Shown: positions 2,117 through 49,262 of the stretch, one piece after another | Layout: the number at the start of each line of letters is the position of its first letter | Numbering within the stretch: position 1 is the first letter of the stretch | Source of the DNA: a virus | Virus record (IMG/VR): IMGVR_UViG_3300020472_000035 | Coordinates: 1-53,895 of that record | DNA: 53,895 bases | Strand: one strand, 5' to 3' | Notes under the pieces: generated by a model | Seen by the model: only the letters and a program-made list of their open reading frames with translations | The model's database searches: none | What the model was told of the DNA's origin: nothing | Made by a program: the position numbers and the translations under genes

Positions 2117-5100
2117 TATACTGCTAAGGCGATTACTCTCAAGTCTTTAATAATAGGTGAGTATGCTTGGTTTGGAGATACGAACACAATTTTTATTTGA
2201 TATTGTGCGAAGTCTAAACCAGCAACTTCATATTCATAGTCACTGAATATTGTTATATCAGATGTTTGTGGTATCTTAGCATTACTAGTGTCAAAGAATT
2301 CCCATCCTAAAGTATCAATAGAATCAGTAGAACCAGAAGGAAGTACTCTATATAGAGGTTTAATCTCAGTATTAGGTGGACGGTAACCTGCAAAGATCAA
2401 CTTAATAGAAGATGATGGATTACTTAGATCTGCGATCTTAGTAATATAACATCCATTATGATCATCACCAACTGGTAATGTTGCTGTATTTGAATCTGCT
2501 GGTGAATTAATTCTTTGACTGATTGTCGTAATAGACATTCTGTCAGTATCAATAACAGGACTTACATTATCCTTTTCACTGAATAATGTTAGATCCATTC
2601 TAAATGACTTAGCACCACTTAATTCAGCAGACTCATTAATTTGTGAACAAACTAATTGTGGAGCAACAAAGTAATTGTCCTCCCCTAGGTTAACATCATA
2701 GAACTCTCCAGTATTACTAAAGGAGTTCTGTGGTAATGATTGACCATTATTAATAGATGTACCAGTAATTGTATTAACCCTTGCTGTGACTAGGGTCTTA
2801 GGCAGAACCATCTTCTGAATCTGCGGTGATAGAATCTCATACTGAATATTTTGTGTTGCCACTACGCTGCTATCACCTGATCTAATACCTAATCTGGCAA
2901 TAGATGATGTAGCAAGATCGTAACTATCTAAAGTAGGATTCATAATAGCAGGATGAGTCTTATTGATCTCAATTAGAGGAATACCATCTAAGTTATAGCA
3001 TTCAACTATTGATTCATCAGTATGACTTGCTGCTGTAGTTCCATCAAGTCCTCTTTCAGCAACAGTTATAGTCTTAGCAGTTCCACTAATAGCAGTGTAG
3101 GACATGATCTCATCATCAATCTTAATATATCCAAGGTTTAATGTTCCAACATTAGCACCATTAATAACAGTATGGAATGCTGTTGCATCATTAACTTGAA
3201 TAGCAGTATCGGAATCTGATATTGATGATGTCAAATATGTATCAGATACTTCAGATTTAATACCTTCAAGAATAACATTGTTATCTGTATCATGCATACC
3301 ATGATGGGAATGTTGAACAGTAATTCTTCTTTGTGATGTAGTATATGTTGGTGTGCTTGCAGGATATGCATTTTGAACAACACTAGATGATACGTTATCT
3401 CCAGAGTAAGTTACAGAAGCAACAGTTGCAGTCTTACCAGAGTCAGCACCAGTAATCTGTTCTGAAGTTGCTGTAAAGACTGTAGAAACATATTTAAGTG
3501 TTAATGATCCATTACCACCACCATTATCTGTCCAAGTAATAACCTCTGCAGTAGGTGCAGCAGCACTGTTACCAGTGATTATTTCACCTACAGTAAAGTC
3601 ACCTGATGCACTACTTACTGTCATTGTGCAAAGAGTCTTAGAAGAAACCAATCTGTTAATAACTGTTCCACCAGTAGCAGAACCAGATTGCCATGTTCCA
3701 GAGATATCATTAATAGTCAACAATACTCCAGCATTACTATCTGTAACTTCTTTAACTGTTCCTTGGGCAAGAGTCGTTTTCTGATAAACACGAGCACCAA
3801 CTGTATAAGGAAGAGTTGCAGAAACAGCATTCATAACCAATTGCAATTCAGGTTGATATGTCTGAATTGGATCAGTTCTTAATACGAGTTTACCACCATT
3901 ACCTGTATCCAGAGGAGCATTATTAAGTGTAAGTTGAGAGGCAACTCCAGTATTGAATACTGCCTTATACACAACAAACTTAAGGTCTTCGTACTGGTCT
4001 GCTGTCCATGTAGTTGCGTTCTGTGATTTAAATAGAACACCAGCGTAAGGCTGTTCAGATATAGTTCTGTCTCCAGTAATATCTAATTCACCCATCCTAG
4101 AGATCCAAACTTGATATTCATTAGAGTCTGAGAAGAGAACAAAGCAATGTTCAATAGACTGTGGAATATAAACAGGTGCTTGGAATGTAAATTTAGTTGC
4201 AATAGCACCAGTTTCAGATGTCTGAATAGTATCAGGTGTTACCGTAACATCGGAGAATGGGAGAATAGCAGTTGTTGGATAACCATTTTCCATCGTTCTG
4301 ATCTGCATAGAGATCGGAATGTTACTATCTTTAGCATTGAAGTAAACATCAACAGAAGTAATGAATACACCACCCTCTTCATCAACCAAGAATGATTGTG
4401 CTAGAGGATCCCACCAACCAACCTGACGTGACTCAGTTCTAGTTGTTCTAACAGTTCTGTCTTGTGTTACTGTGTCTACAACAAGTTCAGCATTTCTAAC
4501 TGCTAATACGTTTTCTTGTAAGGTATTGAGTGTACCTGTTGCTGCATATTCTGTCTGTGCAGCAGATGCGACTGTTCCTGCAGTCCTTGCATCATCTTTA
4601 TTTGTTGTTAATCTTAATAATCTTGTACCAGTAGCCCAACGAGGGTTAGTGCTAACTTGAGGTGGTGGAATAAAGAGTGATCCTTTCCACTGTCCTAATC
4701 TATCTGTAATTAATCTACGATCTCTTACAACTGCTCTAGCACCAGAAGAAGCAAGTAATACTTCACCAACTTGGATATTACCATAGTATTGTCCAACTGC
4801 TTGTGCTGCAAGTGACTCAGTATCAACATTTATAAAGTTAGTTGTTGATGAGTAAGATGAAGGCATATCAGTATCATCATATGGATTCCACTTATAGAAA
4901 TCATTAGGTGAACCAACTCTAAATCTGGCACCACTTGTTAAACCTCTAACTGTTTCACCAATAACAAATGGTGTTGAGTTAGTTCTACTATCAGTGCTAG
5001 GATCTTTAATTACTTCAAGAACCTTCGGCATCAAATAATCACCAACCTTAGTTCCATCGAAGAATCCATAGAACGTAGTTCTAGGCTTCATACGAGCAAC

Positions 5101-15123: not shown

Positions 15124-16350
15124 TTATGTTGCTACGTTAATAGTGCCGTTCATAGCGGCATGAAGTGTGCATTGATAATAAAGTGTCGCAGGTGAATCTA
15201 AAGGAACAGTCCAATATAAAATATTAGATCCACTACCACTTTGACCAGCAGTATATGGTGTTCCAGTTAATCCTTGAGTGCTCTGAAGCCTAAATGGATG
15301 AGCACCACCCTGAACTGAATTGTCAAAGATATAAGTAAATCCTCTATAAACATAAAGGTTAGGATCATTTACCGCACCAGTAAATCCAGGACCAGAGAAT
15401 GTATAATCAGATGAACCACTAGCGTTTAAGTTCCACCAAATAACAGGACTTCTAGAAACAACCCAATCAGTATTATTCCAATAGATTGAGTCACCTTTAA
15501 CAATTCCACTAAGATCACTATCAGTTAATCCAGCGAATGTTGTTATAGGAGTTCCAGTATAGTTAATTGTTACAGTATCACCAGAGATACTAGTTGAAAT
15601 ATCACTTCCACCAGCAAGTGTTAGTGTATCATTTTCAGCATCAGCAGTAGTAGTTCCAGTATCAGCAACAACGGATTCAAATAAATTTTGTGATCCAGCA
15701 CCAGCAAGATCATCAGCAGGTGCCCATTTACTTCCACTAGTACTCCACTTTAAAAGTTGTCCATCAGTAGGAGCAGCAGTCGTAGTATCAACATCTCCTA
15801 CAAGACCAAGACTAGAATATTCTGTTAAAACTTTTGCTTGTACATCACCTACACCACCAGCAGTGATGTTCATATTTACATACGGATTATCATCACCATC
15901 AACTGTAAAGAAATATCCTGCATATGATGCAGCAGCAGGAGCCGAACCTATATTAGCATACTCATTCTTATATTTTACCTTTGTTGGCATATCAATAATG
16001 CCATCAGTACCATTAAATGTGCTGGTAACACTACCATTTGATATGGTTACATTTCCAGTTCCATTAGGAGCAACAACAATATTACCGTTTGAAGCAGAAA
16101 TTATAGAATTACCATTTACATCAAGCGCAGAAGTTAACTGTGTATAGTCTGAAGGTAGAAAAGTTGTGCCATTATAACGCAAGACATGTCCAACAGCAGG
16201 GTTTGCAAGAGTAACCGTTAAATTACTTCCATTACCTAAAGCAGTATATACTTCGCTGAAATTGTCGTTAATCTTATCACCACCTGCACGAAGGGTATCA
16301 CCCGTATTATCGTTTGCAGCAGATCCAAGACCTAATGTTTGTTTAGCCAT
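15124..16350 (-). CDS. Structural protein with C-terminal cupredoxin-like domain (408 aa)
   Basis: The N-terminus (LGLGSAANDNTGDTLRAGG, then KINDNFSEVYTALG) is a short module common at the start of marine phage fibre and baseplate-associated proteins. The middle is Thr/Ser/Gly-rich with a GQLLKWSTSGSKWAPADDL repeat typical of fibre shafts. The C-terminal 100 residues look like a small cupredoxin: YIFDNSVQGGAHPFRLQSTQ supplies His351 and LYYQCTLHAAMNG supplies Cys394, His397 and Met400, the residue set of a type 1 copper site. Cys-x2-His-x2-Met is slightly tighter than in plastocyanin. It is first in its late unit and directly precedes the 1,397-residue protein, which carries the same motif. 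Virion location is inferred from context; copper binding is untested. Confidence 0.8.
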   Translation of the reverse strand: MAKQTLGLGSAANDNTGDTLRAGGDKINDNFSEVYTALGNGSNLTVTLANPAVGHVLRYNGTTFLPSDYTQLTSALDVNGNSIISASNGNIVVAPNGTGNVTISNGSVTSTFNGTDGIIDMPTKVKYKNEYANIGSAPAAASYAGYFFTVDGDDNPYVNMNITAGGVGDVQAKVLTEYSSLGLVGDVDTTTAAPTDGQLLKWSTSGSKWAPADDLAGAGSQNLFESVVADTGTTTADAENDTLTLAGGSDISTSISGDTVTINYTGTPITTFAGLTDSDLSGIVKGDSIYWNNTDWVVSRSPVIWWNLNASGSSDYTFSGPGFTGAVNDPNLYVYRGFTYIFDNSVQGGAHPFRLQSTQGLTGTPYTAGQSGSGSNILYWTVPLDSPATLYYQCTLHAAMNGTINVAT

Positions 16351-43773: not shown

Positions 43774-45798
43774 CTACAAACAAGATGATGTGTTTAAGTT
43801 GGTTGCTGTCTGGGTTGCGACCGTAACCGTTGAAGGTGTTTGGTCGAAAATTGTTGGTGTCAAACTATTTAGTGGGATAGTGGGAGGTGGTGCAGTTCCT
43901 ACAGCAGCTACTGTAATTTCTGGCAATACGATATTAATAATTGTCCCTGGAGTAGAAGCAGGAATACTATTAGAGTTTGAAGGGATGAACTGGACTGGTA
44001 TTTGAAGATCTACAGGAAGTAACGTAGAATCTGTAACAGATCCAGCTCCTGTTTGAGAATCAGTGATATTAACTGCAGTCAGTGATATGTTTAATCCCGC
44101 ACCAATAATAGCAATTGGTCCAAAGGCAATTTCACCAGTATCATAGTTAACAGTACCAGCATTGGCATTAGTATAGATTTTTCTGGTTCCTGTGTTATAG
44201 AACGTTCTTAAATTTCCATAACCATCATCTTCAAATTGCTGATCAACACCTGGTCTGTCAGAAGTTCTAAATGTTCCAGAAAGAAGAATTGGTTCCTTTT
44301 TACAAACGCCATCACCACCATCCTTACTTGGAGCACTATTATAGAGTGCAGAACCAGTAGAAATGGAATATGTGTTAGTTTGGTTCGTAGTAGGTTTAAT
44401 ATAACGTAAAACTGTAGTTTGAAGAGAAACGTCAGTTACACACCTATCTGCTAAAGTAATTGCTTTTTCAAACTGTGATGATCTAAACGTTGAATTAAAG
44501 TTATTGATTTGAGTCTGTGTTGCCCAAGCCTCAACAGCTGCAGATACATTTGTTTTAATTGTAGAAGTATCAGATCCACAACCAGTATCATACTGAACAA
44601 ATACTTTTGGATAAATGTATACATTCTCTGGGTCAATTACAACAGGATCAATAGATGCCATTGCATAACCCCTTAAATCAGCAGCAATACTTTTTTTAGT
44701 CTGATCATTAAGGAGTGATCCAGTTTTTGTCTTAATAGCAATGTAAACTTTACCGTAAATTGGTGGATTTAGTGAGTCACCACCATATGCAACAACAGAT
44801 TCTGCATTATCATAGACCTTTTTAGTGATAATTGAGTAATCTTGTGCTGTTACTGCTCTGTACTGAGAAGAATAGTATCTTGGAGCGTTATATTTGATAG
44901 ATTCAATAGTTTCAGCAACTTCTCCGTTACCAGACTTCATTTTCAAAGTCATAGTAATATCAGATGCTGTATAGGTTCTTGCAAGACTATCTTCGCATCT
45001 ACCAATGAAATTAAAGACATTTACGTCATTTGCTTCCGCACCATCAGTTACCAAGTATTCTAAGGTTACAACCTCACCATCAGATAGAGCACGACCTATG
45101 CTATCATCACCGAATTTTATCTCATAACGCATATCTTCACCCTCAGAGAGGAAATATACACGTGATGTAGGAGTAAGACTTGTTATAGTATCAACTTTAT
45201 TGTATAAATCTGATGTTGTAGAAGTTTCGTTTGCCTTTACATTAACAGTGAGTGTAGAAATATCACAATTTTCAGAAGGTATCTTGTAGACTTGTGAAGC
45301 AAATGTATTAACTGTGTATGAGAACTGAAGAATTGCCCCTTGCTTTACTGTAACATCATCATATGTTGCAATTCCAGTGGTAGGATCAACAGATATTGTA
45401 GTATCTGCTAAAATATTCCACATAAATGCACCACCTTGCAAGATTGCACCTTTCTTAAGGGTAACTGTGCTAGGATATGCCTCACTAGTCTTCTTAGTCT
45501 GTAAAACAAGCTTCACACACGCCCTAGCAGCGACTACAGAGCGTGGAACATAGTTTAGGAGTTTTGCTATATTAACGACGTTATCTCTTACTGTAGCAGA
45601 CGGTAGGAATGCCTCATTCATGCTCATGTTAGCATTGAATGCGGTATAGTAAGTATTGTATGCTAGAGTATCAATCAGATACGATAGCGCAGCACCTTCA
45701 AAGTCATAATCTGTAAACTCTGATCTGGTTCTTAGATATGATTTTATTGAAGACTTAATATCTCCAAAATCTAATGCTGTTAAATTGTTTGGCTGCAT
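43774..45798 (-). CDS. 6: Baseplate wedge subunit gp6
   Basis: A 674-residue protein, close to T4 gp6 (660 residues). The N-terminus (LTALDFGDIKSSIKSYLRTR and FEGAALSYLIDTLAYNTYY, then MNEAFLPSATVRDNVVNIAK and LLNYVPRS) is characteristic of the gp6/baseplate J-like family. The central part carries a FGDDSIGRALSDGEVVTLEY motif and an RAVTAQDYSIITKKVYDNA block also typical of baseplate J proteins. gp6 forms the inner ring of the T4 baseplate and joins neighbouring wedges. Its start overlaps the gp25 stop by one base (TAATG) and the giant gene follows after 5 nt, so SET protein, gp25, gp6 and the giant protein are one late unit. The C-terminal tail is Thr/Pro-rich (PPPTIPLNSLTPT). Confidence 0.9.
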   Translation of the reverse strand: MQPNNLTALDFGDIKSSIKSYLRTRSEFTDYDFEGAALSYLIDTLAYNTYYTAFNANMSMNEAFLPSATVRDNVVNIAKLLNYVPRSVVAARACVKLVLQTKKTSEAYPSTVTLKKGAILQGGAFMWNILADTTISVDPTTGIATYDDVTVKQGAILQFSYTVNTFASQVYKIPSENCDISTLTVNVKANETSTTSDLYNKVDTITSLTPTSRVYFLSEGEDMRYEIKFGDDSIGRALSDGEVVTLEYLVTDGAEANDVNVFNFIGRCEDSLARTYTASDITMTLKMKSGNGEVAETIESIKYNAPRYYSSQYRAVTAQDYSIITKKVYDNAESVVAYGGDSLNPPIYGKVYIAIKTKTGSLLNDQTKKSIAADLRGYAMASIDPVVIDPENVYIYPKVFVQYDTGCGSDTSTIKTNVSAAVEAWATQTQINNFNSTFRSSQFEKAITLADRCVTDVSLQTTVLRYIKPTTNQTNTYSISTGSALYNSAPSKDGGDGVCKKEPILLSGTFRTSDRPGVDQQFEDDGYGNLRTFYNTGTRKIYTNANAGTVNYDTGEIAFGPIAIIGAGLNISLTAVNITDSQTGAGSVTDSTLLPVDLQIPVQFIPSNSNSIPASTPGTIINIVLPEITVAAVGTAPPPTIPLNSLTPTIFDQTPSTVTVATQTATNLNTSSCL

Positions 45799-46217
45799 TA
45801 TTCAGGTCTCTGTAACACGAAATTGACGGTTTCCACAATGGGTTGGCCAACTATTCTATATTCAACAGTTACATCAAACGAATTGGTATCATCATTAGCC
45901 CTAACAGTAATTGGTCCTAAAGTTATTCTAGGCTCATACTGACCAAGAGTATTTATGATCTCATCCCGAATCGCATCTGCTGTAAACAGATCCATCGGTT
46001 CAAAAAGCAAATCGAAGACACCTGATCCAATTTCAGGTTGGAACAATTTCTCTCCCCTTTGTGTAAGTACTAAATTTTTAATTGATTGTTTGATAGCATT
46101 CTCATTCTTTACCACACCAGCGTCTTTTGTAAAGGTATTCATAAGCAACCCAATGCCTACATCCTTATATGCACGTGATAAATTGACTTTAGATCCTCTA
46201 ATCTCTTTTAACGCCAT
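45798..46217 (-). CDS. 25: Baseplate wedge subunit gp25
   Basis: A 139-residue protein of the gp25/GPW lysozyme-like family. Hallmarks are LTQRGEKLFQPEIGSGVFDL followed by LFEP (residues about 51-74) and the EPR motif at 95-97 (GQYEPRITLG), which in T4 gp25 contributes to the wedge core with gp6, gp7 and gp53. The family is about 130 residues, so this is full length. It lies directly upstream of gp6 (TAATG overlap) and downstream of the SET-domain gene (TGATG overlap), so it is translationally coupled on both sides and expressed late. Confidence 0.93.
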   Translation of the reverse strand: MALKEIRGSKVNLSRAYKDVGIGLLMNTFTKDAGVVKNENAIKQSIKNLVLTQRGEKLFQPEIGSGVFDLLFEPMDLFTADAIRDEIINTLGQYEPRITLGPITVRANDDTNSFDVTVEYRIVGQPIVETVNFVLQRPE

Positions 46218-46546
46218 CAGATTTTATAGAAAGTATAGCTCAAAAATAGTTCTTCACCTGCTTCAATAGGTCTAATGACCTTAACATAATATCTTTTTAT
46301 TGACTTATAGTGGGTTTTTGTCAAATTATACATTTTTTCGACCCTTGAACACGTTTTTTCGCAATTTGGAATGTCATTATGGTTAATAAACCCACCTAAC
46401 GGTGTTCTAACGATCTCTTCTTGCAAAATAATGTGGGAAAGACCCAGTTCAGTCCCTACTTTTAATGGAACTTTGGTAAATATACCCTGTCCTGCGACAG
46501 GACTAGCACCAATGTATAATCCTTCGGGTAATGCCTGATAAGTCAC
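46217..46546 (-). CDS. Small SET-domain protein (putative protein lysine methyltransferase)
   Basis: A 109-residue protein beginning with GTG; an in-frame stop lies just upstream and there is no earlier ATG in frame. SET-type motifs are visible: a GQG turn at 19-21 (ASPVAGQGIFTKVPLKVG), the pseudoknot motif GGFINHNDIPNCE at 51-63, and EAGEELFLSYTFY at 96-107 with the candidate catalytic Tyr104. SET domains transfer methyl groups from S-adenosylmethionine to lysines. This one is short, lacking pre-SET and post-SET cysteines. It is the first gene of the gp25-gp6-giant unit, downstream of the 46,569 late promoter, so it would be made late and may modify a virion or host protein. The substrate is unknown. 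Confidence 0.75.
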   Translation of the reverse strand: MTYQALPEGLYIGASPVAGQGIFTKVPLKVGTELGLSHIILQEEIVRTPLGGFINHNDIPNCEKTCSRVEKMYNLTKTHYKSIKRYYVKVIRPIEAGEELFLSYTFYKI

Positions 46547-46560
46547 TAATCATAATGTAA

Positions 46561-46764
46561 CTAATTATTATTTATCGAGGCAACACAGTCTTGCACAGCT
46601 TTAAGCCTTTGATATAATTTATCGCAAGCAGGTTCCGTCTTTCTAGACTTCCAAACCTGCATTACCATTAAATCGAATTCGTCATCCGTTAACCATAAAG
46701 GCATCGGATATTTTTTTGGTTTGTTTAGTCGGGACTCCGACCAAGCTTCATTTATCTCGTCCAT
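46561..46764 (-). CDS. Hypothetical protein, 67 aa
   Basis: A helical, Trp-containing protein (AWSESRLNKPKKYPMPLWLT, then DDEFDLMVMQVWKSRKTEPA). It is not recognised. Its start lies inside the end of the preceding 54-residue gene (17 nt overlap in another frame), and its last codons overlap the late promoter for the SET/gp25 unit. It is the last of the small-gene block before the virion genes. Confidence 0.75.
   Translation of the reverse strand: MDEINEAWSESRLNKPKKYPMPLWLTDDEFDLMVMQVWKSRKTEPACDKLYQRLKAVQDCVASINNN
46569..46575 (-). promoter_or_regulatory. T4-type late promoter for the SET-gp25-gp6-giant unit
   Basis: The minus strand reads TCGATAAATAATAATTAG. The ATAAATA core lies 22 nt upstream of the GTG start at 46546 and inside the 3' end of the 67-residue gene. 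It marks the switch from small genes to baseplate genes. Confidence 0.7.
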
Positions 46765-48450: not shown

Positions 48451-48673
48451 GCATTATCTCTCTATGTTTCCAAGTGAGACCGCTTGTAGACCCTTTACAA
48501 GCATTTATACACGTCTCATCACTCAATTCGTTACAAACTAGACCAGCAAGGTCATGAGGGCACGCTTCTCGTCCTGTAGCCCAGTACAATTGCCCATCTA
48601 ACCATCTCGCTTCACAACAAGGGCATTCCTTTATACTAAGACTCGTGGATCGCCGCCGACGGGGGTTACTCAT
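48431..48673 (-). CDS. Cys-rich small protein, possible zinc-binding, 80 aa
   Basis: The N-terminus is very basic (PRRRRST), followed by Cys17, Cys19 and Cys20 (KECPCCEARWLDGQLYWATG), then Cys38-Pro-His40, Cys47, Cys55 and Cys59. The Cys/His spacing suggests a small zinc-binding fold, though it is not a classical ribbon. It starts inside the last 8 nt of the 2OG-oxygenase gene, so the two are coupled. I recognise it as a cyanophage-type protein but know no role. Confidence 0.75.
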   Translation of the reverse strand: MSNPRRRRSTSLSIKECPCCEARWLDGQLYWATGREACPHDLAGLVCNELSDETCINACKGSTSGLTWKHREIMLDFFDI

Positions 48674-49262
48674 ACAATAGCTCCTTTACTGTAATAGGAT
48701 CGAATCCAGATATTCCACAATCATAAGACCCAGGTATTTCTTTTCCCATTATACCTTTATATTTAAAAATTAGCACATATCTGTTATGTAAGTAATAAGG
48801 TGTGGGTGTTCGCGCCGAATGAGGTATTCTACCATCAAATATAACAACTCGACCAGGCTTAGGTAGTATACTCTTATAGATCTCTAACTCATCATCATAG
48901 AAAATAGTCTCTCCACCGTAGTTAGGATGCCAATGTGAGTTCAAATATACCATCATAGTATATCCCTGATGTATATGAGGTGCACAGTCACAGTGGATAA
49001 CAGGCGCATCACCGAACTTAAGAACATTAACATATACAGAATAACACTCAGTCGTTGGTACAGGTATACCACATAACTCAATACGTGATAGTATATTCTC
49101 TACAAAAGGATCAGTTAACTTAAAATCCTTCGTATAATACAAAGCACGTAGATCTACATCACCTTCCTGATTATTATCATACCTTCCACAAACATAAGAA
49201 AACTGCACGAGGTCGTCATGCAGTTTCTTAGATGCTATATCAGTATCATAATATTGTATCAA
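48666..49262 (-). CDS. 2-oxoglutarate/Fe(II)-dependent oxygenase, prolyl-4-hydroxylase-like
   Basis: A 198-residue protein with the double-stranded beta-helix signature. The iron ligands are His90 and Asp92 (DAPVIHCDCAPH) and distal His148 (RIPHSART). Arg161 in HNRYVLIFKY is the expected 2-oxoglutarate-binding residue. YGGETIFYDDE (115-125) and PGRVVIFDGR (136-145) are typical flanking strands. These enzymes couple oxidation of 2-oxoglutarate to hydroxylation, often of proline; cyanophages commonly carry them. It is full length for the P4H-like group. Its start overlaps the upstream membrane protein gene by 4 nt (ATGA). The substrate is unknown, and a phage or host protein is possible. Confidence 0.88.
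   Translation of the reverse strand: MIQYYDTDIASKKLHDDLVQFSYVCGRYDNNQEGDVDLRALYYTKDFKLTDPFVENILSRIELCGIPVPTTECYSVYVNVLKFGDAPVIHCDCAPHIHQGYTMMVYLNSHWHPNYGGETIFYDDELEIYKSILPKPGRVVIFDGRIPHSARTPTPYYLHNRYVLIFKYKGIMGKEIPGSYDCGISGFDPITVKELLYE

Follow-up and report, generated by a model that had tools for sequence, protein, structure and literature searches.

The stretch analysed here (the window) comprises 53,895 nt and is the entire IMG/VR record IMGVR_UViG_3300020472_000035; it contains a single SET gene. The plus strand of positions 46217–46546 is riddled with stop codons, and the open reading frame lies on the minus strand, running from 46546 to 46217. Its 109-aa product reads MTYQALPEGL...VAGQGIF...GGFINHNDIPNCE...AGEELFLSYTFYKI and also contains AGEELFLSYTFY. 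An earlier sequence-only reading had described a 109-residue protein with a GTG start, without naming a strand, and had quoted the motifs GQG, NHNDIPNC and EELFLSYTFY; the minus-strand frame bears out this description and carries all three motifs. The GTG start is retained by close relatives of the gene. The locus has the following features:

46217–46546, minus strand: gene with a GTG start for a predicted mini SET-domain methyltransferase of 109 aa (Pfam SET, PHROG 28741, AlphaFold2 model)
46484–46492, minus strand: GQG, residues 19–21, GxG part of the cofactor site in SET domains (both glycines, G19 and G21, unchanged in 58 relatives; aligned with GLG/GRG of MLL-type SET domains)
46361–46384, minus strand: NHNDIPNC, residues 55–62, NH..PN active-site element (in 58 relatives N55, H56 and P60 never vary and N61 and C62 hardly do; aligned with NHS.EPNC of MLL)
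46226–46255, minus strand: EELFLSYTFY, residues 98–107, including Tyr104 as the presumed catalytic residue (all 58 relatives share E99 and Y104; aligned with GEELTYDYKF of MLL)
45798–46217, minus strand: gp25-like baseplate wedge protein (Pfam GPW_gp25, E 1.1e-15; PHROG 261, E 4e-62)
43774–45798, minus strand: gp6-like baseplate wedge protein (Pfam Gp6-like_1st, E 2.3e-16; PHROG 219, E 7.5e-223)
16373–43768, minus strand: giant structural/tail protein of 9131 aa, following gp6 (open reading frame; same gene order in relatives)
46569–46576, minus strand: GATAAATA, match to the late-promoter consensus, 30 nt before the SET GTG (cyanophage consensus NATAAATA, PMC2984593)
47621–47767, minus strand: small Lys/Arg-rich protein ending in KKKYRGQGR, upstream border of the variable SET slot (in 447 phage records, common in cyanomyoviruses)

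The SET stop codon and the gp25 start codon overlap by one base (TGATG). Upstream, GATAAATA matches NATAAATA, which has been described as the cyanomyovirus late promoter (PMC2984593), and several relatives retain GATAAATA near −30. The heptamer ATAAATA occurs only five times in the window compared with 23 expected occurrences, always on the minus (coding) strand, and two other copies directly precede tail ORFs starting at 16350 and 10881. Copies stand mostly just upstream of structural genes, as though the late-promoter motif were avoided elsewhere in the window. The promoter motif together with the one-base overlap makes late co-expression of SET with gp25 and gp6 plausible, and we consider it likely from these sequence features that the three genes are transcribed together late in infection, as had been proposed; the SET gene can fairly be said to open the baseplate operon. 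The 9131-aa frame that follows gp6 contains many repeats and occupies about half of the window.

Profile searches, whose failure to find SET would have refuted the sequence-only reading, upheld the assignment to the SET domain. The 109-aa frame matched Pfam SET (PF00856) with 37 bits (curated cut-off 22.4; E 4.9e-9), the alignment covering profile positions 63–104 alone, that is, the second half of the profile, and relatives of the protein likewise match Pfam SET. PHROG 28741, a family of unknown function, was matched over the full length (residues 1–109 to profile positions 1–98 of 100, E 2.3e-32). NCBIfam gave no meaningful match, and no structural-protein family was matched in Pfam, PHROGs or NCBIfam. 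When the single sequence was searched against the PDB the SET matches were weak (E 0.14 and above); a family profile built from 58 relatives matched MLL-type SET domains with E 1e-9 and vSET with E 8e-9, and the GxG, NH..PN and EL..Y elements were in register in the MLL matches. Structure prediction, a check that the sequence-only reading had suggested, also gave a SET fold: the AlphaFold2 model (pLDDT 85.9, pTM 0.77) has SET methyltransferases as its listed PDB matches (Foldseek, VIA-align) and superimposes on the chlorovirus protein vSET with a DALI-scale Z of 11.0 and 2.1 Å over 87 residues. Among viral structures, the best matches to the model were SET proteins of phages and giant viruses.

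Across 58 sequences from phages and bacteria the residues Y3, L6, S15, G19, G21, G35, H38, R47, P49, G51, G52, N55, H56, P60, I94, E99 and Y104 are invariant. The GxG element, the NH pair, P60, E99 and Y104 are features of SET domains in general; H38, R47, P49, G51 and G52, by comparison, look specific to the PHROG 28741 family and set it apart from vSET. Pairwise dN/dS values of about 0.07–0.24 indicate purifying selection on the gene. The Pfam score, the full-length PHROG match, the full-length homologues, the conserved GTG start and the dN/dS values together argue that the frame did not arise by chance, and by sequence and model it is a genuine, very compact SET-fold protein. A SAM pocket is suggested by the conserved residues and by the matches to SAM-bound SET structures. 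Only 34 residues separate GxG from NH in this family compared with about 64 in MLL4, so that the SET-I region is much reduced, and part of the peptide groove may be lost with it.

We found the PHROG 28741 family in 6 of 50,697 phage records: two each of P-RSM6 and P-SSM7, a marine single-cell virus and Pelagibacter phage Kolga. These six homologues are full-length and 36–54% identical to the window protein, and the clade of the window, compared with the cultured relatives, has about 11 residues inserted behind NH..PNC. P-RSM6 CPXG_00131, P-SSM7 PSSM7_204 (T4-like GC 716) and Kolga gp27 are all recorded as hypothetical proteins, and in P-RSM6 the order SET-gp25-gp6 is the same as in the window. 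In IMG/VR, 10 contigs carry full-length homologues of 78–80% identity, and more than 500 stretches match the family. The statement that SET proteins are unusual in phages therefore applies to cultured isolates but not to uncultured ocean viruses. Bacterial relatives are found in Pelagibacteraceae, Flavobacteriaceae and other groups. More distant kin at different loci are the annotated SET proteins of the Stenotrophomonas phages Moby and Ps15 and of uncultured Caudovirales. SET proteins are thus already known in phages and viruses, and the PHROG 28741 proteins are a well-defined, abundant and unannotated minimal family of marine phages; our literature search found no paper that joins 'SET domain' and 'cyanophage'. 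As for the source of the window, psbA is present on the contig of a close relative, and the 447 records that hold the KYRGQGR protein come without exception from cyanophages or marine viruses, which makes a T4-like cyanophage most likely.

The linkage to the baseplate genes depends on where in the family one looks. In a sample of 103 viral loci centred on the query, gp25 follows directly (+1) in 75 and gp6 stands at +2 in 78; in a second sample drawn from a distant centre (n = 67), gp25/gp6 lie downstream of only 24 copies. A universal baseplate linkage was rejected on these counts. Seen from gp25, 145 loci had upstream sequence of sufficient length; SET is directly upstream of gp25 in 24 of them, and no copy was found elsewhere in the 3-kb flanks of these loci. 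In a gp6 tree SET presence or absence changes nine times, six of them on well-supported branches, and SET distances correlate with gp6 distances (Mantel rho 0.52, p 0.001). The tree changes and correlated distances point to a long-lived accessory gene with a preferred slot and several gains or losses. P-SSM4 and Syn33 have gp25 proteins of 61–65% identity and do not figure among the carriers of SET: a 48-aa gene lies directly before gp25 in Syn33, and other genes occupy the slot in P-SSM4. An alignment of 18 divergent gp25 rows was too varied for scanning, and two narrower alignments were used.

Other genes recur around this slot. The KYRGQGR protein was detected in 45 loci, in 40 of which it is one or two genes upstream of SET (−1 or −2), and it is frequently located just before gp25. 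As a dedicated partner of SET or a clue to its substrate it was rejected, since it is present in 447 phage records and SET in six. A PAAR-like protein frequently shares the pre-gp25 slot with SET, two or three genes upstream of it (33 loci). Upstream of the slot in the window we also observed a 2OG-Fe(II) oxygenase gene (48666–49262, minus strand, Pfam E 5e-10).

Away from gp25 the family has varied neighbours. SET adjoins nrdB in P-SSM7 and an AAA gene in Kolga, and the remaining copies of the distant sample adjoin genes recognized by eye as nucleotide-sugar, polymerase, glutaredoxin, terminase or metabolic genes. On four marine virus contigs a mini-SET lies inside apparent clusters of nucleotide-sugar and asparagine-synthase-like genes. 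Among bacteria, argC and proC flank a relative within an arginine operon of Formosa. The argC-SET-proC arrangement occurs in two Bacteroidetes MAGs (positions 4001–4291 on one contig), and the family profile matches 5 of 100 genomes of the bacterial family to which these MAGs belong. Four Pelagibacteraceae contigs carry a longer relative of about 145 aa with amino-acid genes alongside in two of them, namely alanine dehydrogenase and O-acetylhomoserine sulfhydrylase.

A protein of comparable build is vSET (A612L) of the chlorovirus PBCV-1, a minimal viral SET protein of about equal size with 25% identity over the aligned part; it targets K27 of histone H3, and the virus, which infects algae, packages it (PMC7019647). 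The host of the phage, by contrast, has no histones. BurB of Burkholderia thailandensis, a SAM-dependent SET methionine S-methyltransferase (PMC12542666), resembles the window protein in being a SET-domain protein in a bacterial setting, as far as its published description allows a comparison, but acts on free methionine. BurB is absent among the PDB matches listed in the structure and profile searches, which has no bearing on kinship.

We regard it as somewhat probable, though well short of assured, that the gene encodes an active, late-expressed, SAM-dependent SET methyltransferase, most likely of protein lysine, and that its location marks an insertion slot and not a baseplate substrate. 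According to this model, SET would be transcribed late together with gp25 and gp6, SAM would bind at the GxG/NH site, and Tyr104 would stand at the channel through which the methyl group is transferred to nitrogen; the target, within the infected cell, would most likely be the side chain of a lysine in a protein of the host or of the phage. The position next to the baseplate genes would then be an accessory-gene slot that confers late expression. A slot is preferred over a baseplate substrate because the same family occurs in many other neighbourhoods. Protein lysine is the commonest SET substrate and is ranked first for this reason; the example of BurB keeps this assignment from being certain.

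Part of the same evidence can be read as pointing to the virion. The sequence-only reading had suggested that the enzyme might methylate a virion protein during assembly, for which gp25, gp6, the giant tail protein or the KYRGQGR protein could be candidates, and the frequent succession of gp25 and gp6 in the query-centred sample, the one-base overlap with gp25, the late-promoter motif and the correlated SET and gp6 distances would all fit such a role. The strength of the gp25 linkage near the query leaves this proposal a real, if rather small, chance of being correct. It is weakened by the hundreds of cyanophages, many close phages among them, that have gp25 and the KYRGQGR protein without SET, and by the occurrence of the family away from tail genes in P-SSM7, in Kolga, in most of the distant relatives and in bacterial chromosomes. 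Lysine columns of gp6 that track SET presence would have linked the two proteins; none did, in a comparison of at most six independent pairs on supported branches and hence of low power, and the idea was set aside as unsupported. A search of the literature yielded no report of methyl-lysine in phage virions. Alternatively, the substrate could be a free amino acid such as methionine or one of the basic amino acids, which would make this a metabolic auxiliary gene similar to BurB. The methionine S-methylation by BurB (PMC12542666) and the amino-acid operons of the bacterial relatives (argC/proC, alanine dehydrogenase, O-acetylhomoserine sulfhydrylase) make this a serious proposal, and the shortened SET-I region would agree with a small substrate. 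We nevertheless judge it unlikely: the cellular neighbours differ among themselves, the phage copies share no pathway, and a metabolic gene expressed late with structural genes would be unusual. A third view takes the small size at face value. With just 109 residues, neither pre-SET nor post-SET regions and a reduced SET-I, the protein might be a binding or structural module that has kept the SET fold without catalysis. This we consider very improbable, since phage and bacterial sequences alike retain GxG, NH, P60, E99 and Tyr104 without variation, and since vSET is enzymatically active at a similar size (PMC7019647).

If the favoured model of an active, late-expressed methyltransferase is extended to the family, minimal phage SET proteins might serve marine phages to reprogram cyanobacteria or Pelagibacter late in infection by methylating host proteins or free amino acids, which would be a bacterial counterpart of the vSET strategy; we put this forward as a tentative idea that is doubtful at present. 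Methylation of proteins or metabolites by phage SET enzymes is almost unstudied. The family described here is abundant in ocean viruses, has a confidently predicted fold and is still labelled 'unknown function', and with P-RSM6, P-SSM7 and Kolga there are cultured carriers in which the substrate can be searched for directly. Its identity would tell what is modified by marine phages: their own tails, or the proteins or the amino acids of the host.
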